Source: a virus. From it: 40,588 bases of DNA. The position numbers were made by a program, and so were the translations under genes. Numbering within the stretch: the first letter of the stretch is position 1; each line of letters opens with the position of its first letter. Positions 3,059-37,948 of the stretch are shown piece by piece. The stretch spans positions 1 through 40,588 of the IMG/VR virus record IMGVR_UViG_3300042320_000182. One strand, 5' to 3'. The notes beneath the pieces are model-generated. The model saw only the letters and a list, made by a program, of their open reading frames with translations. It was not told the origin of the DNA and ran no database searches.

Positions 3059-3522
3059 AGCAGGCTATAGAACTGTCTAAGAACTTATTGATTAAGCCCT
3101 TTGAAGGTTGTGCAAAGGTACTACCCAATAAACTAGTACAAGCTTATCCAGATCCTGGTACAGGTAAAGAACCTTGGACTATAGGTTACGGTACAACAGG
3201 ACCCCATGTCACTGAGAATACTGTATGGACCATGGAACAATGTGAAGCTGCACTTGATGAACACATTGTCTACTTTCTTAATGGTCTATTGAAGCTGTCA
3301 CCATCACTTGCTAATGAGAACCCTAGAAGGATTGCAGCAGTACTGTCTTGGGTTTATAACTGTGGACTAGGTAACTACCGTATTAGTACCTTTAAGAAGC
3401 GTATAGACGCTAAGGATTGGTTAGGTGCACAGGTAGAGTGTAGGAAGTGGAATAAAGCAAATGGTAGAGTACTTAGAGGTTTAACAGTACGGAGAGAGGC
3501 TGAAGCTGCAATGCTAGTTTAA
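3055..3522 (+). CDS. Endolysin, GH24 phage lysozyme
   Basis: This is a muramidase that cleaves the MurNAc-GlcNAc bond of peptidoglycan. The N-terminus has KPFEGC with the expected catalytic Glu17, followed by AYPDPGTGKEPWTIGYGTT holding Asp33 and the Thr of the GH24 E-D-T signature. The C-terminus has LSWVYNCGLG and RRIAAV-type helices and ends LRGLTVRREAEAAML, a common GH24 ending. At 155 aa the length is normal. There is no signal or SAR segment, so export should depend on the upstream holin-like proteins. The start is GTG overlapping the previous TGA, with no clear Shine-Dalgarno sequence, which implies translational coupling. Confidence 0.92.
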   Translation: MKQAIELSKNLLIKPFEGCAKVLPNKLVQAYPDPGTGKEPWTIGYGTTGPHVTENTVWTMEQCEAALDEHIVYFLNGLLKLSPSLANENPRRIAAVLSWVYNCGLGNYRISTFKKRIDAKDWLGAQVECRKWNKANGRVLRGLTVRREAEAAMLV

Positions 3523-12119: not shown

Positions 12120-12331
12120 CTAACCCTCTCATACTTGGCTTTTAGTCTGTCTATGTTATCAAAGTAGGCAGCATTAAACCCTCGTTGCCACTCTAAACCC
12201 TTAGCATCATCTGAAGGGTAAGGATTATTTAACCACCCCTTTGTAAATGCGTACCTACCTTTGTCATATTGAATGGACAAAGGAGGTACACGATCTTTCT
12301 TAGGCTGCAAGTTTGTGTTCAGTACTTTCAT
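12116..12331 (-). CDS. Small protein with possible RMF/CrpP-like motif (71 aa)
   Basis: The second half reads AFTKGWLNNPYPSDD, then EWQRGFNAAY. A Gly-turn followed by NPYP and a W-x-x-G-[FYW]-x-A helix is the layout of ribosome modulation factor and CrpP-like small proteins. If real, it could act on host ribosomes, but the match is a short pattern seen by eye. GGGGA lies about six bases before the ATG, and the start overlaps the 3' end of nrdB by 32 bases. A TTG eight codons in would shorten the overlap. Confidence 0.65.
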   Translation of the reverse strand: MKVLNTNLQPKKDRVPPLSIQYDKGRYAFTKGWLNNPYPSDDAKGLEWQRGFNAAYFDNIDRLKAKYERVR

Positions 12332-13286
12332 TAGTTCCCCATCCCCAATCGCCTACCATGCCTGCTGCATTGTAATCAGTGACTACACCTTCAAAAAAAT
12401 TCTTCAGTGTGTCACCAGCAACAATCCAATCAAGCCACTCTAAGGGATTCTTCTTAACTCCAAAGTTACCTTTAAGTCCCAGTTGAATTAAGCGTCTATC
12501 CGCTATGTACCGAATATAACTCTTAACATCTTCTGGTGTCAAGCCCTGTACTGCTCCTAGTTCAAATGCACCATCAATAACTGCATCCTCTAATGCAACA
12601 CCATCTCTGAACATTTGATAGATATCTTTCTTGAAGTTGTCAGTGACAATCCTTGGATGTTCATTACAGAATTCCCTGAAGAGTCTTACCATGCCCTCAC
12701 AGTGCATGGATTCATCTCGTATGGACCATTCGACAATCTCACACATACCCTTCATCTTACCGAATCGCTGGTAGTTTAAGAGCATGGCAAAGGCAGAGAA
12801 CAGAGACATGCCCTCATTCATCACAGAACGGGCTACAGCCTTAGCTAATCCTTCATGGCTATGGGTATCTATCTGTGTCATGAAATCGATCTTATCACGC
12901 ATTTGCTTGTACGCTAGGAAGGCTGAATACTCTTCCTCTGGCAGTCCTAGTGTGTCGTTTAATAGGGCATACGCTCTTTGGTGTATAAACTCACGTGCAG
13001 CGAAACTGGTAAGCATAGCACGTATTTCATTGTTCTTAAACTTGTGCACATAGTGATCTAAATAATTACACCCCACGGCTACATCACTCTGAGTAAACAA
13101 TCGCAATATTTGTGTAATGTGATTCTTTTCTATTTGAGAAAGCTTCCCACTTTGCCATTGAGCTACATCATCCTGCAACTTAGCTTCAGCCTCAATCCAA
13201 TGAACCTTCTCAGATTCAACGGCATATTCCATAGCCCAGGGGTATGCGAAAGGTTTATAGGTGTTATTGGGTGTTAAAACGGACAT
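12300..13286 (-). CDS. nrdB: Ribonucleotide reductase class I, beta subunit
   Basis: This subunit houses the di-iron tyrosyl-radical cofactor used by NrdA to reduce ribonucleotides to deoxyribonucleotides. Expected ligands are in order: Asp68 (TQSDVAV), Glu99 and His102 (REFIHQRAY), Glu158 (NEGMSLF), and Glu192 and His195 (RDESMHCEG). Tyr106 is present at the radical position, seven residues after Glu99, so this looks like a classical tyrosyl-radical enzyme and not a Mn/Fe or radical-free type. At 328 aa the length is slightly short but complete. GGAG lies about seven bases before the ATG. A terminator-like hairpin lies just upstream, so expression may be set separately from nrdA. Confidence 0.95.
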   Translation of the reverse strand: MSVLTPNNTYKPFAYPWAMEYAVESEKVHWIEAEAKLQDDVAQWQSGKLSQIEKNHITQILRLFTQSDVAVGCNYLDHYVHKFKNNEIRAMLTSFAAREFIHQRAYALLNDTLGLPEEEYSAFLAYKQMRDKIDFMTQIDTHSHEGLAKAVARSVMNEGMSLFSAFAMLLNYQRFGKMKGMCEIVEWSIRDESMHCEGMVRLFREFCNEHPRIVTDNFKKDIYQMFRDGVALEDAVIDGAFELGAVQGLTPEDVKSYIRYIADRRLIQLGLKGNFGVKKNPLEWLDWIVAGDTLKNFFEGVVTDYNAAGMVGDWGWGTNESTEHKLAA

Positions 13287-14741: not shown

Positions 14742-15170
14742 AGGGACTCTCACCAGTTTAAGCTCTTTAATAGGAACCTGAAAGAAGTATTCACCTTCAT
14801 ACACATACCTATTAGGCACTTCGACTAAGGGGGAAGCAATAAGCGTACTGCCCTCACAGAGAAATGCGTGAGTCTGTTCGTTATTAAATACCATGAAAGT
14901 ACACGGCAGATCAAGTCCGACAAACTTTCGCTTCCTTTCAGGTATTTGTAAGGTATCGTACTGAAAAGTCTCTCCTGACCATACCCTTTTAATCTCAACT
15001 TCACTGTAGAACCTCTCACTTTCAGTGATCACAACTAAGTCAGGACCATACTGATCATAGTTAGGTACAGCCATGTAGCCCATAGACTCCCAGTACTTGA
15101 TACCTGCTTCACGTGCTGGTGAATCATTGTCACTAAATAGCCGCTTACTAAATCGTTTCTTCTTACCCAT
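14736..15170 (-). CDS. PD-(D/E)XK-like conserved phage protein (144 aa)
   Basis: I chose ATG 15170 (MGKKKRFSKRLFSDNDSPAR), which matches the N-terminus I remember for homologues in T7-like cyanophages and pelagiphages. ATGs at 15194 and 15206 would overlap nrdA further. The core YGPDLVV followed about 15 residues later by EVEIKRVW gives Asp and Glu-x-Lys in the spacing of a PD-(D/E)XK nuclease fold. QIPERKRKF and SPLVEVPNRYVY are further conserved-looking blocks. Nuclease activity is unproven. The start overlaps the nrdA stop by eight bases. Confidence 0.75.
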   Translation of the reverse strand: MGKKKRFSKRLFSDNDSPAREAGIKYWESMGYMAVPNYDQYGPDLVVITESERFYSEVEIKRVWSGETFQYDTLQIPERKRKFVGLDLPCTFMVFNNEQTHAFLCEGSTLIASPLVEVPNRYVYEGEYFFQVPIKELKLVRVPV

Positions 15171-16908
15171 GGCAACTAAGACACTCTTCAGCATCTTGCA
15201 ATGCATTCCTTTCGATCTTTAATCCGATCTTGTCTGCTTGTACACCTGCACTGGTACGAAGATAATACAAACCTTTTAGCCCTGACTTCCATGCTCTTAA
15301 GTGTACAGCATTCACATAGGACTTAGGACTACCAGCAGGGAAGAATAAATTGAGAGACTGTCCCTGGCAAATGAAAGACTGTCTAGCTGCTGCATGTGTA
15401 ACTACCCAGCTTTGATCCAGTTCAAATGCAGTCTTAAATACATCCTTCTCGTCTTTAGTGAGGAAGTCTAAATGCCTCACTGATCCTTCATTCATAATAA
15501 TCGTTTGCCAGACTTCCGGTGTATCCTGACCATACTTGGAAAGTACCTTTTGTAAGTACTGGTTCTTAACAAGATGCGATCCTGCACGAGTTCTGTGAAC
15601 GTATGCGTTAGACTTAATAGGCTCAATGGAAGCAGAGCAACCACAAATAATACTGCTGTTAGCGTTTGGAGCAATAGCAATAAGATGTGCATTCCTAGTG
15701 TTTGTACCTTTGAGATCACGTGGTTCCCCTCGTTCAGTAGCCAGTTGAGCTGTAGCCATTTGTGCCCCTAGTTGGATGAACCTGAACATCCTACGATTAG
15801 CCACTTCAGCCATAACACTTTCAAAGGGAATGCCGTGTAACTGCAGGTATCCATGGAATCCCATAGCACCTAAGCCTAATGATCGCTCACTCTCAGCACT
15901 GAATCTAGCCTTGTGGATATCATCTGGTGCATTGTCAATGAATGCTTGCAGTACATTGTCTAAGAACCTAATTAGATCTTCTACCATAGGTGTCTTAGAC
16001 CACTCATCAAACTTCTCTAGGTTCACACTAGACAAACAACATACTGCTGTACGTTCTTCACTGGTAGCTAAATGGATCTCATTACATAGATTACTGCCAT
16101 GTACCTTTAAGCCCAGCTTCTTCTGTGCATCGTTAAGACCACGGTTAGCTGCATCAATGAAGTTAATGTAGGGACTGCCAGTACGGAATCTAGCTTCCAG
16201 TAATCGTTGCCATAAGTCACGTGCCTTGTACGAACCTCTTACTTCTTTTGTAGATGGATCTTTAAGTTCCCAATCAAGATCCTTCTCTACTGCTTCCATA
16301 AATTCGTCAGTGACATTGACTGCGTTAAATAGATTGAAGCATTTTCTATTGATGTCCCCACCAGTTGGCACTTTGAAATTAATAAACTCGATAACATCAG
16401 GGTGACTAATATCAAGATACGCTGCATAACTTCCTTTACGTGTTTTACCTTGCTTGTATGCAGTCATCTGACTGTCTACAACTTTCATGAAAGGTATAGG
16501 CCCTGGTGCTTTATCACTGACACCCCGCACATCTGACCAGTGACCACCTACACCACCACCTTTCACAGATAACCATGCTATCTCTGCATTGTGGTCAATC
16601 AGTGATGGTAGATTATCTCCAATGTAAGTAAGGAAACATGAGATAGGTAGAGCCTTAAAGTACTCACCGACACGTGGGGCATTGCTAAGCACTGGACTTG
16701 CATACATAAACCAACCTTTAGATGCGTAGTCATAAATGCGTTGTGCAAATGCCTTGTCGTAATTGCTATAGGCTAGTGCTGCTCTGCCATATGCCTCTTG
16801 TGGTGATTGCTCTCCAGGAAGCATGTAGTAATCCTGCAGCAGTTGCTTTGCTTGATCAGACAGTAGCTCATCTCTACCTATGTCTAGGGTAATACCGTGA
16901 TAGTCCAT
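15163..16908 (-). CDS. nrdA: Ribonucleotide reductase class I, alpha subunit
   Basis: This is the catalytic subunit that reduces NDPs using the radical from NrdB. Active-site residues are visible: Cys91 (ISCFL) with Cys290/291 (AVCCLSS) as the redox pair, Asn273-x-Cys275-x-Glu277 (SNLCNEI), the tyrosine pair Tyr548-Tyr549 (GLYYLRT) for radical transfer, and the C-terminal shuttle CLSC (Cys576, Cys579). At 581 aa it is far shorter than the roughly 760-aa bacterial enzyme. It starts directly at the catalytic domain without an N-terminal ATP cone, so dATP shut-off of overall activity should be lost. It lies in the leftward unit four genes upstream of nrdB. Confidence 0.96.
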   Translation of the reverse strand: MDYHGITLDIGRDELLSDQAKQLLQDYYMLPGEQSPQEAYGRAALAYSNYDKAFAQRIYDYASKGWFMYASPVLSNAPRVGEYFKALPISCFLTYIGDNLPSLIDHNAEIAWLSVKGGGVGGHWSDVRGVSDKAPGPIPFMKVVDSQMTAYKQGKTRKGSYAAYLDISHPDVIEFINFKVPTGGDINRKCFNLFNAVNVTDEFMEAVEKDLDWELKDPSTKEVRGSYKARDLWQRLLEARFRTGSPYINFIDAANRGLNDAQKKLGLKVHGSNLCNEIHLATSEERTAVCCLSSVNLEKFDEWSKTPMVEDLIRFLDNVLQAFIDNAPDDIHKARFSAESERSLGLGAMGFHGYLQLHGIPFESVMAEVANRRMFRFIQLGAQMATAQLATERGEPRDLKGTNTRNAHLIAIAPNANSSIICGCSASIEPIKSNAYVHRTRAGSHLVKNQYLQKVLSKYGQDTPEVWQTIIMNEGSVRHLDFLTKDEKDVFKTAFELDQSWVVTHAAARQSFICQGQSLNLFFPAGSPKSYVNAVHLRAWKSGLKGLYYLRTSAGVQADKIGLKIERNALQDAEECLSCHG

Positions 16909-19924: not shown

Positions 19925-21985
19925 TTAGTTTAAAGTGGTTTGCGGAACTTCTTTTTGCTCAAGCCAATTGTCACCTATCTTTGCTTCCAATGCAAGTGGC
20001 ACATTGAAATCTATCGACCATCTCTTGTTAATGAGATTGATAAGATTAGCCTGAACTTCGTCGATAACTTGTACTACATATTCAATTTCATCTGGGTGTA
20101 TATCAATCACGATTGAATCGTGGACAGAATTTACCACACAACTTTCAAATCGCACAAGACGTTTATGTATCTCCACTAATGCGAGAGGAACAATGTCTGC
20201 AGTTGCGAATGATTGCACTGGATAATTCTTTATCTGTGTGAAGTTTGTAACTGTACCATCCTTCTTACGCTTTGTACCTGGGAATACAAACTCCCTACCT
20301 GAAGGCAACTTAATGTACCCGTAGTTAAGTACCTGCTTAGCTAATCGCTTGTGCCACTCAGCTACTCCTTTATACTTTTCCATAAAGTGGGTGTAGTAAG
20401 CCGACTCTGCAGGTGTTCTTCCGTATCCTGTAGCTCCGTACAAGGGTGCAAAGGTATGTGTTTTAGCTGTCTGTCTAGATGTTGTTTGGCCTGCCTCCGT
20501 AATAACCTTTGCTGTGTACGAGTGAACATCAAATCCTTCTTTGACTTCTTTGATTGCAATTTCATCTTGAGATAAGTAAGCAGCAACCCTGAATTCCAAT
20601 TGAGCAAAGTCAGCTTCCATGATCTTGCCTCCTTCCCACCGAGATAAGAACACTCGCTTTACAGGGAAGGTATTACCCCGTGGCATGTTTTGCATATTAG
20701 GATTAGAACCACTAAACCTAGCAGTTGCTGTGACATGTTGATTCAACCGTACATGTAACATGCCATCAGGTTTAATGAAAGCTGCAATGCCATCCACAAA
20801 GTTACTCAGGTAACTATCCAGGGCAGACAGTCTCCTAAGTCTGCTCAGAAACTCAGAAGCTTCTGGCATGTTCTTTGAAACAGCTACCCTTTCGAGTACT
20901 TCAAGACTGTCTTTGGACGTACTAAATCCATTGGCACTTGCCCACTTGGGGTTGGGTGCTGTGAACTTAAGCCCTGCAACATCTTTCGTCTGCTGATAGA
21001 TAAAGCCTGACCCATTGCACGTAGCGCATTTTGTTGCCCTCTTGAACGCTGATCCATCTTTCTTAACCTTATACACCGTACCTGCACCAGAGCAGTCACT
21101 ACACTGTACAGCTTTAGTTTTGTACAAGGTAACGAAGTTCTGTTTCACTGCTGACCTAAAATCTACATCTGTCATGTAAGGTGTAATAGCAGATATCCAT
21201 CGACTCTTGCTAACAGGTTTCCTGCTGTACACCACCCATGACAATTGCTCTGGGCTATTGAGATTGATAGGCGTATCGCCCATGAGTACATGTACCTTAT
21301 CTTGTAGATACGTTTCAATCTCATTCTTCTCTGTAATAAACTGGTGTCGTACTTCTTCCAGTGCATCAAGGTTAACTTTAAACCCTGCCTGATACATCCT
21401 AGCAAGCACTACAGTGACTTCGTTAGTAAGGTCGATAGTACCCCTTAGACCTGCATCTTCATTGGATTCTAGACGCTTCTGGATGGATTTGTAGACCCAT
21501 TCAGTGGCACCTAAGTCATGGCACAAGTATTCTGAGAGTGTTGCATGAGGGATATCTCGTACTGAGATACCACGCTTGAGATAATCTTTGATGACATCCT
21601 GCTTCTGAACAGGGGATTGGTGTCTTAGTGCCACTGATCCCAGGTCAAGAGGCATAGTTATACCACGTTGTAGGATGTAGTCACTAAGCATGGTGTCAAA
21701 CACTAAGCCTGTGTACTTAAATCCACATTCCCAGAGCCATAGTAAATCGTGAGATATGTTATGACCTACAAGTACTGTGGTTTTATTCAGTGCTTCTTGT
21801 ACAAGATGTCTGCACTTATCAACATCCTCCGACACTTCCGAATGATCGAAGGTATAAACTTGGCAATCTTGGTCAAGGTGTTTAACACCTACCATGACCA
21901 GTGTATTACCTGCCTCAAATGGATCTAAATGTTTCTTGCCATCTCTTACGTTAACTGTGTTCTCTACGTCCAGTACTGTAATCAT
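19925..21985 (-). CDS. DNA polymerase, family A, with DnaJ-like zinc module
   Basis: This is the replicative polymerase. The 3'-5' exonuclease is intact: Asp6 and Glu8 (LDVENT), Asn76 and Asp80 (GHNISHD), Tyr153 and Asp157 (YLCHD). Polymerase motif A is EADFAQLEFR (Asp459). Motif B is RQTAKTHTFAPLYG, with Phe512 at the E. coli 762 position. Motif C is VHDS (Asp623), with Ser in place of the usual Glu. Between the LNSPEQL motif (about 242-248) and GFSTSKDSL (353-361) is an extra segment holding CSDCSGAG (Cys295, Cys298) and CATCNGSG (Cys320, Cys323), a DnaJ-type CxxCxGxG pair. HMO-2011-type phages are known for such a partial DnaJ domain. AGGA lies nine bases before the ATG. Confidence 0.96.
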   Translation of the reverse strand: MITVLDVENTVNVRDGKKHLDPFEAGNTLVMVGVKHLDQDCQVYTFDHSEVSEDVDKCRHLVQEALNKTTVLVGHNISHDLLWLWECGFKYTGLVFDTMLSDYILQRGITMPLDLGSVALRHQSPVQKQDVIKDYLKRGISVRDIPHATLSEYLCHDLGATEWVYKSIQKRLESNEDAGLRGTIDLTNEVTVVLARMYQAGFKVNLDALEEVRHQFITEKNEIETYLQDKVHVLMGDTPINLNSPEQLSWVVYSRKPVSKSRWISAITPYMTDVDFRSAVKQNFVTLYKTKAVQCSDCSGAGTVYKVKKDGSAFKRATKCATCNGSGFIYQQTKDVAGLKFTAPNPKWASANGFSTSKDSLEVLERVAVSKNMPEASEFLSRLRRLSALDSYLSNFVDGIAAFIKPDGMLHVRLNQHVTATARFSGSNPNMQNMPRGNTFPVKRVFLSRWEGGKIMEADFAQLEFRVAAYLSQDEIAIKEVKEGFDVHSYTAKVITEAGQTTSRQTAKTHTFAPLYGATGYGRTPAESAYYTHFMEKYKGVAEWHKRLAKQVLNYGYIKLPSGREFVFPGTKRKKDGTVTNFTQIKNYPVQSFATADIVPLALVEIHKRLVRFESCVVNSVHDSIVIDIHPDEIEYVVQVIDEVQANLINLINKRWSIDFNVPLALEAKIGDNWLEQKEVPQTTLN

Positions 21986-27115: not shown

Positions 27116-28015
27116 TTACCCTCGGCTGCTTGTGAAGCGAAGCGTAGCAGCTTTTCTGGCACTTGTCAATGTATGTTTCATGTAAGGCATCACTGAAGCT
27201 GGACTCTGATGACCTGTCACTGCCATAATTTGTGGTAATGGGACCCCTGCATCGACCATCTCCATTGTGCCTGTCCTTCTCATGTCCATGATTTGTAGCT
27301 CTTCAGATAGCCCAGCTTTACGCATGATCCTACGTGCTGCCATGGATATCGTGTGCTTGTTGTAGGTATTACCTGTGACCTTACTTGCATTACAGATGGG
27401 TGCAACGTAAGGTTGGAATCCTATCTCTTGCTTCTGCTGTACCAACATCCCATGTAATTCATCTGTCGTAGGCAGTTCTACCTTAGCCCTACGTTTAGAC
27501 TGCTCAAGGTACAACACTCGATGTTCAAAGTCATAGTTGTCCCATTTTAATTGGGTCATATCCCCTAGCCTCTGACACCACTCGTATGCCATCTGAACTA
27601 TGAGTCCCACAGAACGGGTGTTAAACGAGCTATAAGCCACGTTTAAGAAGCGGGTGATATCCTCCCTAGTCCAGACTACTTTGCGTGTCTTGTAGGGCCT
27701 TCTAGACACCTTGCTGAAGGGATTTACAGTGCAGTATCCTAGCTGGATACTGAAGTTGTACAATTTACTGGAAACTCTGCACGTGTGATCAGCGAAAGAT
27801 AACCCCCTTTCAGCCCAATGATTGTATGCACGTTGTGCCTGGGGCACTGTCAATGTCGTTAGAGACATACTGCGTACAGTTCGTGTGCCTATGGGAGTAT
27901 CTAGTAGTGTGTCGAGGCAGTACTTGTAATCCTTTTGTGCAGACTTAGACAGGTTTCTATAGTCCAAGGAACTATAGTACTCGTCGATAGCATCTACAAT
28001 CTTTCGCTTTTTCAT
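27116..28015 (-). CDS. Tyrosine recombinase / integrase
   Basis: This 299-aa protein has an N-terminal SAM-like core-binding domain (about residues 1-105) and a catalytic domain. Visible residues: Arg149 (CQRLGDMTQL), a Lys in SKRRAKVELP (Lys174 or Lys178), Arg246 in MDMRRTGT, His269 in TGHQSP, and the nucleophile Tyr278 nine residues later. The His usually at the start of the HxxR box is Met243 here, a conservative variation known in some active recombinases. It may integrate the phage or resolve genome multimers. I see no tRNA or att core beside it, and no repressor gene in the window. Confidence 0.9.
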   Translation of the reverse strand: MKKRKIVDAIDEYYSSLDYRNLSKSAQKDYKYCLDTLLDTPIGTRTVRSMSLTTLTVPQAQRAYNHWAERGLSFADHTCRVSSKLYNFSIQLGYCTVNPFSKVSRRPYKTRKVVWTREDITRFLNVAYSSFNTRSVGLIVQMAYEWCQRLGDMTQLKWDNYDFEHRVLYLEQSKRRAKVELPTTDELHGMLVQQKQEIGFQPYVAPICNASKVTGNTYNKHTISMAARRIMRKAGLSEELQIMDMRRTGTMEMVDAGVPLPQIMAVTGHQSPASVMPYMKHTLTSARKAATLRFTSSRG

Positions 28016-28024
28016 GGTGTCAGA

Positions 28025-28327
28025 TCACACAGATGGGTTTATCCAGTTGAACATAGCCTTGCTTAGGAAGTTGCTTATCTCCTTCTTACCTGCTAGTGGC
28101 ACAGGTGTATCTTCCATTTTAGGTGTGGTTGATGTAGCCCATACCCATTTCTTGTCCACTTTGTATGAATGAATCATCTTGCTCCTACGCATGTACTGCA
28201 ACAAAGAGGCAACTCTTGCATGTGTTGTCTTAAATTCAGCCTGTAATTCAGATGCTGTCATTGCCCTATTCGATATAGCTTTGATGACATCTGCTTGATC
28301 AATGGTTGCGTTAGGATCAAAGACCAT
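28025..28327 (-). CDS. Putative winged-helix DNA-binding protein (100 aa)
   Basis: Residues of about 20-65 read MTASELQAEFKTTHARVASL, then LQYMRRSKMIHSYKVDKKWV. This is a helix-turn-helix followed by a wing, like MarR/DprA-type winged helices in which the second helix contacts DNA. GGAG lies six bases before the ATG, and its stop is nine bases upstream of the integrase gene. A transcriptional regulator or a recombination accessory factor is plausible; the specific target is unknown. Confidence 0.75.
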   Translation of the reverse strand: MVFDPNATIDQADVIKAISNRAMTASELQAEFKTTHARVASLLQYMRRSKMIHSYKVDKKWVWATSTTPKMEDTPVPLAGKKEISNFLSKAMFNWINPSV

Positions 28328-35251: not shown

Positions 35252-35267
35252 TGTCGAACATTCGACA
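35252..35267. promoter_or_regulatory. Palindrome TGTCGAA-NN-TTCGACA, copy 1
   Basis: This is a perfect 7-2-7 inverted repeat with spacer CA, 22 bases upstream of the gp88-like gene start on the leftward strand. The same palindrome recurs at 35663, 35783 and 36603 with different spacers, so it is a candidate operator or a mobile palindromic repeat. Confidence 0.7.
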
Positions 35268-35548: not shown

Positions 35549-36301
35549 TTAGATCCTCTTGAGTAAAGCTTCAATAACAGCATTCAAGTCTAAGCCTTCG
35601 GCTTTAGCGAGATTGGCTACTGAATCGGCGAAAGCTTCAGCATTATCTACGATAATTTCCAGTGTCGAATCTTCGACAGTAGTTTCAACCTTTGGTTGAA
35701 CGGTTGCATTGTCAACCTTCGGTTGAACGGGTGTCGTATCAACCTTCGGTTGCACTGCAGTTTCAACCTTCGGTTGATTTGGTGTCGAAGGTTCGACAGT
35801 AGCATTTACTTCAGCCTTTGGCTGATTGTTGGATCTGAGCAATTGGCGAAGGTAACTAGCAGAGCTAGAGCTGATATCCAACTTTTTCATCTGATCCTGG
35901 ACTAATGTCCAGTTAGTTGCAAGCCACTGAGCATCTGATCTATCTTGCCTTGACATAGTGGACAATTCAGTTTTCTGTAAAAACTGACCATACTGAACGT
36001 CAGACTTGAAGTATGAACGTAGTTCATTGAGCAATTTGCCGATTTGCATCAATCTTTCCAGATTGGCTTTGGCTTGCTTTTTGATGGATCGGTACACTTT
36101 GACTTGTGCATCAATTTGCTCCGCAATGGTCTTGCCATCGAATTGCTTCGTCAGGATCAAAGATCCTCCAGCGTCATACATCACAGCGTCATTGACGGGA
36201 GGTTTTGCCTTTGGCAATGTGGCATTGGTAACTGCCGACTTTACAGTCGGTACATTGAAAACTCCGTTTTCGGCGATAACTGCGAGGTTTGATTGAGCCA
36301 T
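35549..36301 (-). CDS. First leftward gene: protein with QPKV repeat linker (250 aa)
   Basis: I chose ATG 36301 (MAQSNLAVIAENGVFNVPTV), which has GGAG about eight bases upstream; the frame opens 33 bases earlier without one. The N-terminal 150 residues are helical and basic (KVYRSIKKQAKANLERLMQI; GKLLNELRSYFKSDVQYGQF), resembling DUF3102-like or ParB-accessory helical proteins, but I cannot name the family. A linker follows at about 158-212 with five NQPKVE/VQPKVD-type repeats, then a C-terminal acidic helix (about 213-250). The linker DNA is built of small palindromes. It is the first gene after the control region, so probably early and possibly regulatory. Confidence 0.78.
   Translation of the reverse strand: MAQSNLAVIAENGVFNVPTVKSAVTNATLPKAKPPVNDAVMYDAGGSLILTKQFDGKTIAEQIDAQVKVYRSIKKQAKANLERLMQIGKLLNELRSYFKSDVQYGQFLQKTELSTMSRQDRSDAQWLATNWTLVQDQMKKLDISSSSASYLRQLLRSNNQPKAEVNATVEPSTPNQPKVETAVQPKVDTTPVQPKVDNATVQPKVETTVEDSTLEIIVDNAEAFADSVANLAKAEGLDLNAVIEALLKRI
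35663..35825. repeat. Palindromic repeats encoding the QPKV/VExST linker
   Basis: Two copies of TGTCGAA-NN-TTCGACA (35663-35678 and 35783-35798) alternate with hairpins of the form TCAACC-TTY-GGTTGA at 35685-35699, 35712-35726, 35739-35752 (5' arm complete) and 35763-35777, plus a variant TCAGCC-TTT-GGCTGA at 35812-35825. In the gene frame the first type reads VE(D/P)ST and the second QPKV. Confidence 0.88.
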
Positions 36302-36311
36302 TTTCCTACTC

Positions 36312-36403
36312 CTTACTATTAAGTTTATAAACAAGTTAAAATATTTACTACCCCTTCACTTTCAGTGAGGGGTAAATATTTTAACTATAAACTTAATAGT
36401 AAG
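36312..36403. repeat. Long near-perfect inverted repeat upstream of the leftward operon
   Basis: The arms are 36312-36354 and 36369-36403. They pair over their whole length apart from a 5-base bulge (36330-36334), a 2-base bulge (36349-36350) and an inner TCAC/GTGA hairpin. On the leftward transcript the distal arm runs into the Shine-Dalgarno AAGGAG of the gene starting at 36301. Confidence 0.9.
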
Positions 36404-36446
36404 AGTGTCCCGCCGACTTTGCCCTACTGCAATTGCCATGCCAACT

Positions 36447-36503
36447 TCGACGAACGGTCGATTTGAGCCGACGAATGGTAGGTTTGACCTGACAAACGGT
36501 AGT
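36447..36503. repeat. Three 21-bp-spaced direct repeats (iteron-like)
   Basis: The copies begin at 36447 (TCGACGAACGGTCGA), 36468 (CCGACGAATGGTAGG) and 36489 (CTGACAAACGGTAGT). Start-to-start distance is exactly 21 each time, two helical turns, so a protein bound to each would lie on one face. Two more copies lie at 35311 and 35332. Confidence 0.85.
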
Positions 36504-36602
36504 CGAAATTGTGGCATGAAAATTGTCTTACAATTTTTACGTGGGATCATGATGTGCGGTCCTAAGTACTTCATGGACCGTGTAAAAGGGGGATAGGGTT
36601 AG

Positions 36603-36618
36603 TGTCGAAGGTTCGACA
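36603..36618. promoter_or_regulatory. Palindrome TGTCGAA-GG-TTCGACA
   Basis: A perfect 7-2-7 inverted repeat, the same element as at 35252 and in the QPKV linker. A second, unrelated operator-like palindrome (TTTCACA-T-TGTGAAA) lies at 36660-36674. Confidence 0.7.
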
Positions 36619-36843
36619 GGGAAAGTGTGGGGTTGAAGGTGCACCGACTCGACACCTCGTTTCACATTGTGAAATCCACTGGCTTTGTGGCATTAAAAAT
36701 GCACTTTAACTGATTACCTAACAGTTAAACACATTCTCTAACCCATTGATTCTAAAGCATTTATATGATGCATATACAATGCCTTATGTCATAATGTAGC
36801 ATTGCACGTGATCCTGGGCGTGTGTATGCGGGTGATCACGAGC

Positions 36844-36874
36844 GGGGGTGGGCGTGGGCCAGGGTGGGGTGGGG
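36844..36874 (+). other. G-quadruplex-forming tract
   Basis: Six runs of three to five G are separated by loops of one to three bases (GGGGGTGGGCGTGGGCC, then AGGGTGGGGTGGGG), in otherwise AT-rich surroundings. This exceeds the usual four-run G-quadruplex pattern. An inverted repeat CGTGATC/GATCACG (36807-36813 and 36834-36840) lies directly upstream. Confidence 0.75.
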
Positions 36875-36959
36875 CGCTACTGTATATGGCTTGTTACACA
36901 GATAAGGGTAAATCACTTACCATACTTTAGTACTATACACACATACCGCATATCACTAA

Positions 36960-36975
36960 TGATAATCCATTATCA
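36960..36975. promoter_or_regulatory. Palindrome TGATAAT-CC-ATTATCA
   Basis: This is a perfect 7-2-7 palindrome. Its half-sites are the Fur half-site TGATAAT, but the spacer is two bases where the Fur 7-1-7 box has one. A further palindrome AGTAAGT-ACTA-ACTTACT lies at 36987-37004. Confidence 0.5.
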
Positions 36976-37061
36976 ATAGTTAAGTGAGTAAGTACTAACT
37001 TACTATGCACAAAAAATAGGCAGATACCATGCAACACATAATGTGCTTAAATTTTAGGCAG

Positions 37062-37101
37062 ATTGCATGAATGTTTAATGAATTGCATGAATATTTAATG
37101 A
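37062..37101. repeat. 20-bp tandem repeat next to the Fur-like box
   Basis: ATTGCATGAATGTTTAATGA (37062-37081) is followed at once by ATTGCATGAATATTTAATGA (37082-37101), with one base different. The end of the second copy forms the first five bases of the Fur-like box. Confidence 0.93.
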
Positions 37102-37115
37102 GAATGATTCTTATT
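37097..37115. promoter_or_regulatory. Fur-box-like site 1
   Basis: AATGAGAATGATTCTTATT differs at one position from the common Fur pattern AATGAnAATnATTnTCATT and is palindromic apart from that base. It lies 39 bases upstream of the -35 of a rightward promoter. Confidence 0.55.
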
Positions 37116-37139
37116 ACTATGTATGTTACCGTACATATA

Positions 37140-37158
37140 AATGAGAATCACTCTTGAT
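37140..37158. promoter_or_regulatory. Fur-box-like site 2, overlapping a -35 element
   Basis: AATGAGAATCACTCTTGAT has an intact left half and a degenerate right half. It lies 43 bases from site 1 and covers most of the -35 hexamer TTGATT at 37154-37159, a position where a bound repressor would block RNA polymerase. Confidence 0.45.
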
Positions 37159-37182
37159 TGCGTAGTGGAAGTGTGGTAAAAT
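37154..37182 (+). promoter_or_regulatory. Sigma70-like promoter 1 (rightward)
   Basis: TTGATT (37154-37159), 17-base spacer, TAAAAT (37177-37182). The spacer ends in GTGTGG, close to an extended -10. It points towards the rightward unit beginning at 37703. Confidence 0.6.
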
Positions 37183-37214
37183 GCACGAAAGTTTGGGTCT
37201 GAGTCATTTAACAC

Positions 37215-37242
37215 TTGACATCCTAAGTAAAACTCATATACC
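37215..37242 (+). promoter_or_regulatory. Sigma70-like promoter 2 (rightward)
   Basis: A perfect -35 TTGACA (37215-37220), 16-base spacer and a moderate -10 TATACC (37237-37242). It lies in tandem with promoter 1. Confidence 0.5.
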
Positions 37243-37286
37243 ATAGGGTAACAACCCTCACTGAAAGTGATACATATAAGTGTTAC

Positions 37287-37540
37287 ACTTAAGTGATATA
37301 GTTAAATATATACTTATATAAGTACTTAAATATATACTTATATACATGTAGTTAAATATATAGTACAATAAACACTTACATATATACTTAAACTATACAA
37401 TCATATAAGTACTTATATATGTACTTAAAATATACAAGTACATAAACACTTAAACTACACAATCAAGTAACTATACTTATAAATATAAAGATACTTGTAG
37501 TAAAGAAGTTAAGATAAAGACACTTAAGTGTACACTTAAA
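37287..37540. repeat. AT-rich array of degenerate 12-bp repeats
   Basis: The word ACTTA begins at 37287, 37312, 37324, 37336, 37374, 37386, 37411, 37423, 37448, 37475, 37522 and 37534. The gaps are mostly 12 or about 25. Three exact in-phase 12-mers lie at 37311-37346 (TACTTATATAAG, TACTTAAATATA, TACTTATATACA). Palindromes such as ATATAAGTACTTATAT occur within. It has the look of a DNA-unwinding element or protein-binding array. Confidence 0.8.
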
Positions 37541-37702
37541 TATACACATAAGAACCCCTGGAACAGAAATACTTGTGCTAATCCTAAGCGTAGCTTTTTA
37601 GCTTAGGGTTATATTTGTACAGTTATCCTAGCCCCGCAGCGACTGAACGTAGTGAAGGAGCGAGGATTAAAGCGGAGCGAAGCGTAGCTTCTTTATTGAC
37701 TT

Positions 37703-37948
37703 GTGAAGAAAAAGAAAATATACCTAAGAGAAAATTATATCTTTGAAGACTTCATTAAAGCTGTCTATCGAGATAAATTAGATCAACTACACATTCCCCA
37801 TAGTGATGTATTCTTTGTACGTGCAGCCTTAGAAAAGCGTACAGGTACAAGATTCCCCCTTATGGATGTAGAAGCTGCAATGAAAGCTGAAGGCTGGCAT
37901 GAGGGTAGAATACTTGTGAATGATTATAGGAATAAACGAAGTGGATGA
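37703..37948 (+). CDS. Hypothetical 81-aa basic protein, first rightward gene
   Basis: This is the first ORF of the rightward unit, starting at GTG (MKKKKIYLRENYIFEDFIKA). The core VYRDKLDQLHIPHSDVFFVR, then ALEKRTGTRFPLMDVEAAMK, resembles small marine phage proteins whose role is unknown. No Shine-Dalgarno sequence is visible and the leader is long, about 460 bases from the predicted promoters, so the start is uncertain. Its stop overlaps the next open frame. Confidence 0.68.
   Translation: MKKKKIYLRENYIFEDFIKAVYRDKLDQLHIPHSDVFFVRAALEKRTGTRFPLMDVEAAMKAEGWHEGRILVNDYRNKRSG

Follow-up and report, generated by a model that had tools for sequence, protein, structure and literature searches.

A gene-free divergent junction in an HMO-2011-type phage genome, probably a transcription-control region, with a core of nearly fixed spacing

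Positions 36302-37702 of the IMG/VR virus record IMGVR_UViG_3300042320_000182 (positions 1 to 40,588, the stretch analysed here and called the window) contain no convincing gene and are crowded with repeats, which raises the question of what this junction does for the phage. The initial annotation had read it as a replication origin combined with an early/late switch. On its sequence, the window phage is an HMO-2011-type phage: its DNA polymerase (19925-21985) shares 60% identity with the enzyme of Puniceispirillum phage HMO-2011 and has two CXXCXGXG motifs (CSDCSGAG and CATCNGSG), the marker of this type (PMC9038755), and both the metabolism arm and the divergent layout of HMO-2011-type phages are present. 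In the ORF list, the leftward arm of metabolism genes extends from 36301 to 12300 and the opposite, rightward arm starts at 37703, which is the layout of HMO-2011 and CRP-1 in reversed orientation. The interval thus fills exactly the gap between the leftward DNA-metabolism unit and the rightward one, as had been annotated. Since no head or terminase genes were identified within the 40.6-kb window, the contig looks like a fragment; the relative G003 (57 kb) has a 127-bp end overlap and appears to be complete. The window encodes separate class I-like ribonucleotide reductase subunits (small, 12300-13286; large, 15163-16908); the enzyme of HMO-2011 and the CRP phages is of class II, dependent on adenosylcobalamin.

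The absence of a convincing gene was borne out. The longest ORFs inside the interval are 63 and 70 aa, and in an alignment of seven genomes (the window and six clade relatives, G001-G006) conservation falls on its non-coding elements. Positions 36302-36502 are about 95% identical in four of the seven, and most other sequence about 70-78%. All the repeat classes that the initial annotation named were found, and the density is indeed unusual: 10 of the 18 palindromes with seven-bp arms in the 40.6-kb window fall inside this 1.4-kb interval, 3.5% of its length. Among the 7-2-7 palindromes are TGTCGAAGGTTCGACA at 36603, taken up below, and TGATAATCCATTATCA. Four of the elements are as follows.

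36448..36502, forward strand: 21-bp direct repeats, GACGAACGGT-like, 2.6 copies, conserved in the clade
36960..36975, no strand assigned: TGATAATCCATTATCA palindrome, with similar palindromes in relatives
37062..37101, forward strand: 20-bp tandem repeat, two copies, 95%, without counterpart in all six relatives and thus private to the window phage
37099-37113: Fur-box-like TGAGAATGATTCTTA, grouped with the TGATAATCCATTATCA palindrome

Fur boxes were rejected, as Fur-like matches in the window are not above chance. An Rfam search gave only sub-threshold miRNA-like matches, which are explained by hairpin shape.

The long inverted repeat next to the leftward unit forms a leader hairpin, and one 16-mer is found both in its loop region and in the leader of the opposite unit.

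35549..36301, reverse strand: first leftward metabolism gene, 250 aa, Shine-Dalgarno AGGAG, no assigned function
36312..36403, reverse strand: leader hairpin of 43 bp, with the first metabolism gene's Shine-Dalgarno at its end
36356..36371, reverse strand: 16-mer CCCTCACTGAAAGTGA, copy 1, in the hairpin loop region
37255..37270, forward strand: 16-mer CCCTCACTGAAAGTGA, copy 2, at the start of the rightward leader
37703..37948, forward strand: first gene of the rightward unit in the ORF list, 81 aa, no assigned function

Folding of the hairpin is strong relative to shuffled sequences (z = -8.4), and the 43-pair fold is kept, with compensatory changes, in five sequence variants that range from A-U-rich to G-C-rich. 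Equivalent leader hairpins were found in HMO-2011, CRP-1 and CRP-345, and folding is significant in four lineages. G002 is without both the hairpin and the first metabolism gene. Energy-only screening for such hairpins in 37 further contigs was not discriminating. Both copies of CCCTCACTGAAAGTGA have the same sense relative to transcription, one per leader; copy 2 is intact in G001, G003 and G006 and altered in G002, G004 and G005. The first metabolism protein has a helical N-terminal part, a linker of PKVE/PKVD repeats and a short helical C-terminus. Its clade homologues are 63-66% identical, and the first genes of HMO-2011 and CRP-1 resemble it in layout as judged by eye. Pfam, PHROG and fold searches gave no significant match for this protein, with no domain and no PDB match, and the structural model is of low confidence (pLDDT 52). 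The linker is encoded by a 27-bp coding repeat at 35681-35777, and two of the operator-like palindromes listed next lie at or beside this stretch.

The palindrome at 36603 belongs to a dispersed family of operator-like sequences.

36603..36618, no strand assigned: operator-like palindrome TGTCGAANNTTCGACA, junction copy
35783..35798, no strand assigned: copy 2, within the first gene
35663..35678, no strand assigned: copy 3, within the first gene
35252..35267, no strand assigned: copy 4, in the gap before the GP88-like gene

Three of the four copies thus lie to the left of the interval, and all fall between 35252 and 36618; by chance 0.13 would be expected in the window (up to 2 mismatches). 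The relatives have three or four copies at matching places, except G002, which has none. The equivalent in HMO-2011 is AGTCCGNNNNCGGACT, with five copies in about 3.4 kb, and CRP-1 and CRP-345 have GTCCAANNTTGGAC instead, four times at the start of the arm, with one or two further perfect copies elsewhere. The place is constant and the palindrome word is specific to the lineage, a pattern expected of a regulator that coevolves with its operators. No repressor or activator could be named among the genes searched; the search of small early genes gave only a weak winged-helix-like match (E = 0.01, 28025-28327). This 100-aa protein, encoded beside the integrase gene, matches MarR_2 and is a candidate regulator.

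On the rightward side, a single good promoter is followed by a repeat array.

37215..37242, forward strand: sigma-70-type promoter TTGACA-16-TATACC, conserved in 7/7 clade members
37265..37552, forward strand: AAGTGATACACTT and CACTTA/TAAGTG array, in 13-bp and then about 12-bp units

A TTGACA/TATAAT-type promoter was also found beyond the core (described below) in all 40 of the other contigs. A leftward promoter is not convincing, the search for one having given no candidate whose -35 is good; promoter-like sites are not above chance in number (7 against 9.7). The sole near-consensus host promoter faces the structural side, and the early/late switch stays unproven. The 12-bp AT array (37296-37435) of the initial annotation is real but degenerate (66% match), and is better described as an array of CACTTA/TAAGTG, of which there are 8 copies compared with 0.4 in shuffled sequence. 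Its length differs between near-identical relatives: L089 and L096 (G001 and G006) are nearly identical and differ by a deletion inside the array, so that array length is unstable.

Between the hairpin and the promoter lie three short elements in constant order and at nearly constant distance, which we refer to as the core.

36708..36726, no strand assigned: left end, quasi-palindrome AACTGATTACCTAACAGTT (AACTG...CAGTT)
36844..36874, forward strand: G tract GGGGGTGGGCGTGGGCCAGGGTGGGGTGGGG, GGGCCA-centred, the sole G-quadruplex motif in the window
36897..36907, forward strand: right end CACAGATAAGG (consensus CACAGATYAGG), 189 bp from the AACTG palindrome

A G-quadruplex motif had been annotated here, and 0.125 would be expected in random sequence of the window's length. 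The last 25 bases of the G tract and CGCTACTGTATA are invariant in the clade, and the exact 25-base piece was found in nine contigs. Core spacing is 189-191 bp in the window's clade. The AACTG palindrome occurs in HMO-2011, CRP-1, CRP-345 and about 75 contigs, and in these three cultured phages AACTGATNCCATAACAGTT, the G tract and CACAGATYAGG follow in the same order. For a test of spacing, contigs were selected by the AACTG palindrome alone, and 78 could be assessed. CACAGATYAGG was present, with at most one mismatch, in 73 of these, at 188-199 bp from the palindrome in 71 of the 73 carriers and at 194-197 bp in 64, and no exact copies were found elsewhere in the same 735 kb. At least two of the five contigs that failed look like unrelated viruses. 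A further element, TTAACCACA, stands at 217-220 in 35 of 42 non-redundant contigs, and at any distance in 41 of 42; it is missing in the window's clade, unlike the junctions of HMO-2011, CRP-1 and CRP-345. The conservation of spacing among relatives that the initial annotation had put forward as a check was therefore found, with order and near-fixed distances kept in the clade, HMO-2011, CRP-1 and CRP-345. A direct DNA search of the window core against named phages gave no relative, and the link to them rests on motif order. The G tract is always on the strand read toward the structural arm. A related tract occurs in CRP-207, CRP-603, CRP-2, CRP-9 and CRP-13, and in the first three of these it is present without the AACTG or CACAGAT ends. 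A host-derived G tract was rejected, the only two matches being chance ones in genomes of unrelated bacteria. At the junctions of CRP-603, CRP-13, CRP-1 and CRP-345 there are at least two repeats of TTTGTGATCACAAA-like palindromes to the left of the G tract, and one GTGATCAC adjoins the tract in the window (36832-36839).

Taken together, the position of the interval, its promoter and operator-like sites and the leader point to transcription control, and we consider it probable, at somewhat better than even confidence, that the interval is the divergent transcription-control region of an HMO-2011-type phage. The location between divergent units is common to the window, HMO-2011, CRP-1 and CRP-345. 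The sequences of the elements, their conservation and covariation, their spacing and their link to the structural arm are what the comparison establishes, and the binding, timing and mechanism given next are inferred. Host RNA polymerase would read the rightward (structural) arm from the sigma-70-type promoter, and a regulator probably binds the CACTTA/TAAGTG array just downstream. The leftward mRNA would open with the 43-bp leader hairpin, which runs into the ribosome-binding site; this hairpin probably governs how the RNA is processed, how stable it is or how the first metabolism gene is translated. A regulator probably also binds the few palindrome copies, which are placed only from the control region to the start of the metabolism arm. 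The core of about 190-197 bp, between the promoters, would most likely carry a protein-DNA complex that sets the output of the structural arm.

The junctions of HMO-2011, CRP-1 and CRP-345 resemble the window: their arms diverge, a leader hairpin precedes the first metabolism gene, the AACTG palindrome, G tract and CACAGATYAGG keep nearly the spacing they have in the window, there is a TTGACA promoter, and a palindrome occurs in several copies in the metabolism arm. The sequences of the hairpin and of the operator-like palindrome differ, however, and the CACTTA-rich array, clear in HMO-2011, is weak in the two CRP phages. Phage lambda has the classical divergent early control region, including an N-leader with an RNase III hairpin. 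The window shares with it a pair of opposing transcripts, a long hairpin immediately before the first gene of the leftward unit and one 16-mer common to both leaders, for which a nut-like function is only putative. The rightward promoter is conserved; a convincing leftward promoter was not found, no convincing gene, and hence no repressor gene, lies between the promoters in 36302-37702, and the phage lineage is different. In the stoperator/repressor systems of mycobacteriophages, one motif is dispersed over early genes and its sequence is lineage-specific (PMC9283540), as in the window. Those systems have many asymmetric, oriented, genome-wide sites and a repressor, whereas the sites in the window and HMO-2011 are symmetric palindromes in four to five copies (four in the window) at the start of one arm only.

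Some observations weigh against transcription control: the searches gave neither a good leftward promoter nor a regulator gene that could be named, G002 has no hairpin and no first metabolism gene, the G tract of CRP-207, CRP-603 and CRP-2 stands without the other core ends, and the core is more invariant and more rigidly spaced than is usual for a site with a regulatory role alone. One possible reading, put forward tentatively and with less confidence than transcription control, is that the core is a DNA machine, in which a G-quadruplex or R-loop and protein sites at fixed distance would form one complex, inherited with the structural arm, that switches the phage from metabolism to virion production or starts packaging.

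That the interval joins an origin to the control region, as first annotated, seems to us rather unlikely. The AT-rich, iteron-like array would unwind, and transcription of the G tract would leave an R-loop or G-quadruplex RNA that primes bidirectional replication. The near-rigid core geometry and the constant placing of the G tract on the strand transcribed toward the structural arm are in keeping with this, and TTAACCACA in the non-redundant contig set is one mismatch from a DnaA box; but the window's clade lacks TTAACCACA, its region has no DnaA box, and no initiator gene was recognised although repeat arrays exist. The GC-skew analysis that had been suggested gave a cumulative minimum at the junction and a maximum at the convergent point in both G003 and HMO-2011, but the skew turns exactly where gene orientation turns. 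In HMO-2011 the convergent gene boundary lies about 19 kb from the junction in one direction and 36 kb in the other, and the skew peaks there, not at the antipode. As the maximum follows the boundary even with unequal arms, skew reports gene orientation and cannot decide the matter. Further evidence comes from CRP-9 and CRP-13, mosaics of HMO-type structural and packaging genes with cobavirus-type replication genes (PMC8528129); retention of the G tract is not stated in the text of that paper covered here. The junctions of both (L251 and L248) retain the G tract and TTAACCAC, and the cobavirus CRP-4 has G-rich DNA without the GCCA/TACGTATA form. The tract goes with the structural arm despite the cobavirus-type replication genes, which counts against an origin tied to HMO replication proteins; inheritance of an origin together with its replication genes is not what CRP-9 and CRP-13 display. 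The control-region half of the initial annotation is thus well supported by comparison, and the origin half found no independent support. The junction may be an origin that uses host factors, or a packaging site.

A packaging signal (pac or cos), with the core as the start point of the terminase, is in our view improbable. In CRP-9 and CRP-13 the tract accompanies HMO-type structural and packaging genes (PMC8528129), and the geometry of about 195 bp is near-rigid, but in CRP-1, CRP-345 and CRP-13 the gene for the small subunit of the terminase is about 5 kb away from the core. Ends of public contigs near the core are scattered and are explained equally well by assembly breaks. Contig or locus ends do occur at the G tract, or no more than about 200 bp from the AACTG palindrome, with a higher frequency than one might guess (L152, L162, L183, L184, L187, L189, L219, L220, L224, L226, L228, L230 and L231), as assembly breaks or genome ends.

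An attachment site (attP) for the tyrosine integrase was rejected as very improbable. An integrase is encoded in 12 of 12 long HMO-type contigs tested that have the core (a thirteenth record, L213/G017, was set aside as a chance pattern match without core); however, no tRNA T-arm-like sequence was found in the window or G003, and the integrase gene (27116-28015) is more than 8 kb away. In the CRP-3 genome the published attL/attR primers fall at 2829 and 3642, some distance (about 3 kb) from the junction, and CRP-13 has the G tract but no integrase, both of which count against attP. In CRP-3 (L247) the primers place attP near 3185, where a sequence resembling a tRNA T arm lies between gp06 and gp07. 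That the repeats simply built up by chance in an AT-rich spacer under no constraint, which would suit the private 20-bp repeat and the variable array length, has a probability close to negligible, being refuted for every element except the 20-bp repeat by order, spacing and covariation conserved over large divergence.

A divergent transcription-control region is of a known kind among phages; the fixed-distance core is unusual and new here. Keyword searches of three papers on HMO-2011-type phages (PMC9038755, PMC6918029 and PMC8528129) found no mention of the junction region and no account of gene control in HMO-2011-type phages, a group reported to be dominant and widely distributed in the ocean (PMC9038755). 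The region offers testable sites for such control, namely the hairpin leader, the lineage-specific operator-like palindromes and the core, of which about 75 public contigs have a copy. Its pattern might also pick out genome fragments of the HMO-2011-type group without any marker gene and, if the reading as a DNA machine is true, the core would be an undescribed machine of an abundant marine phage group.
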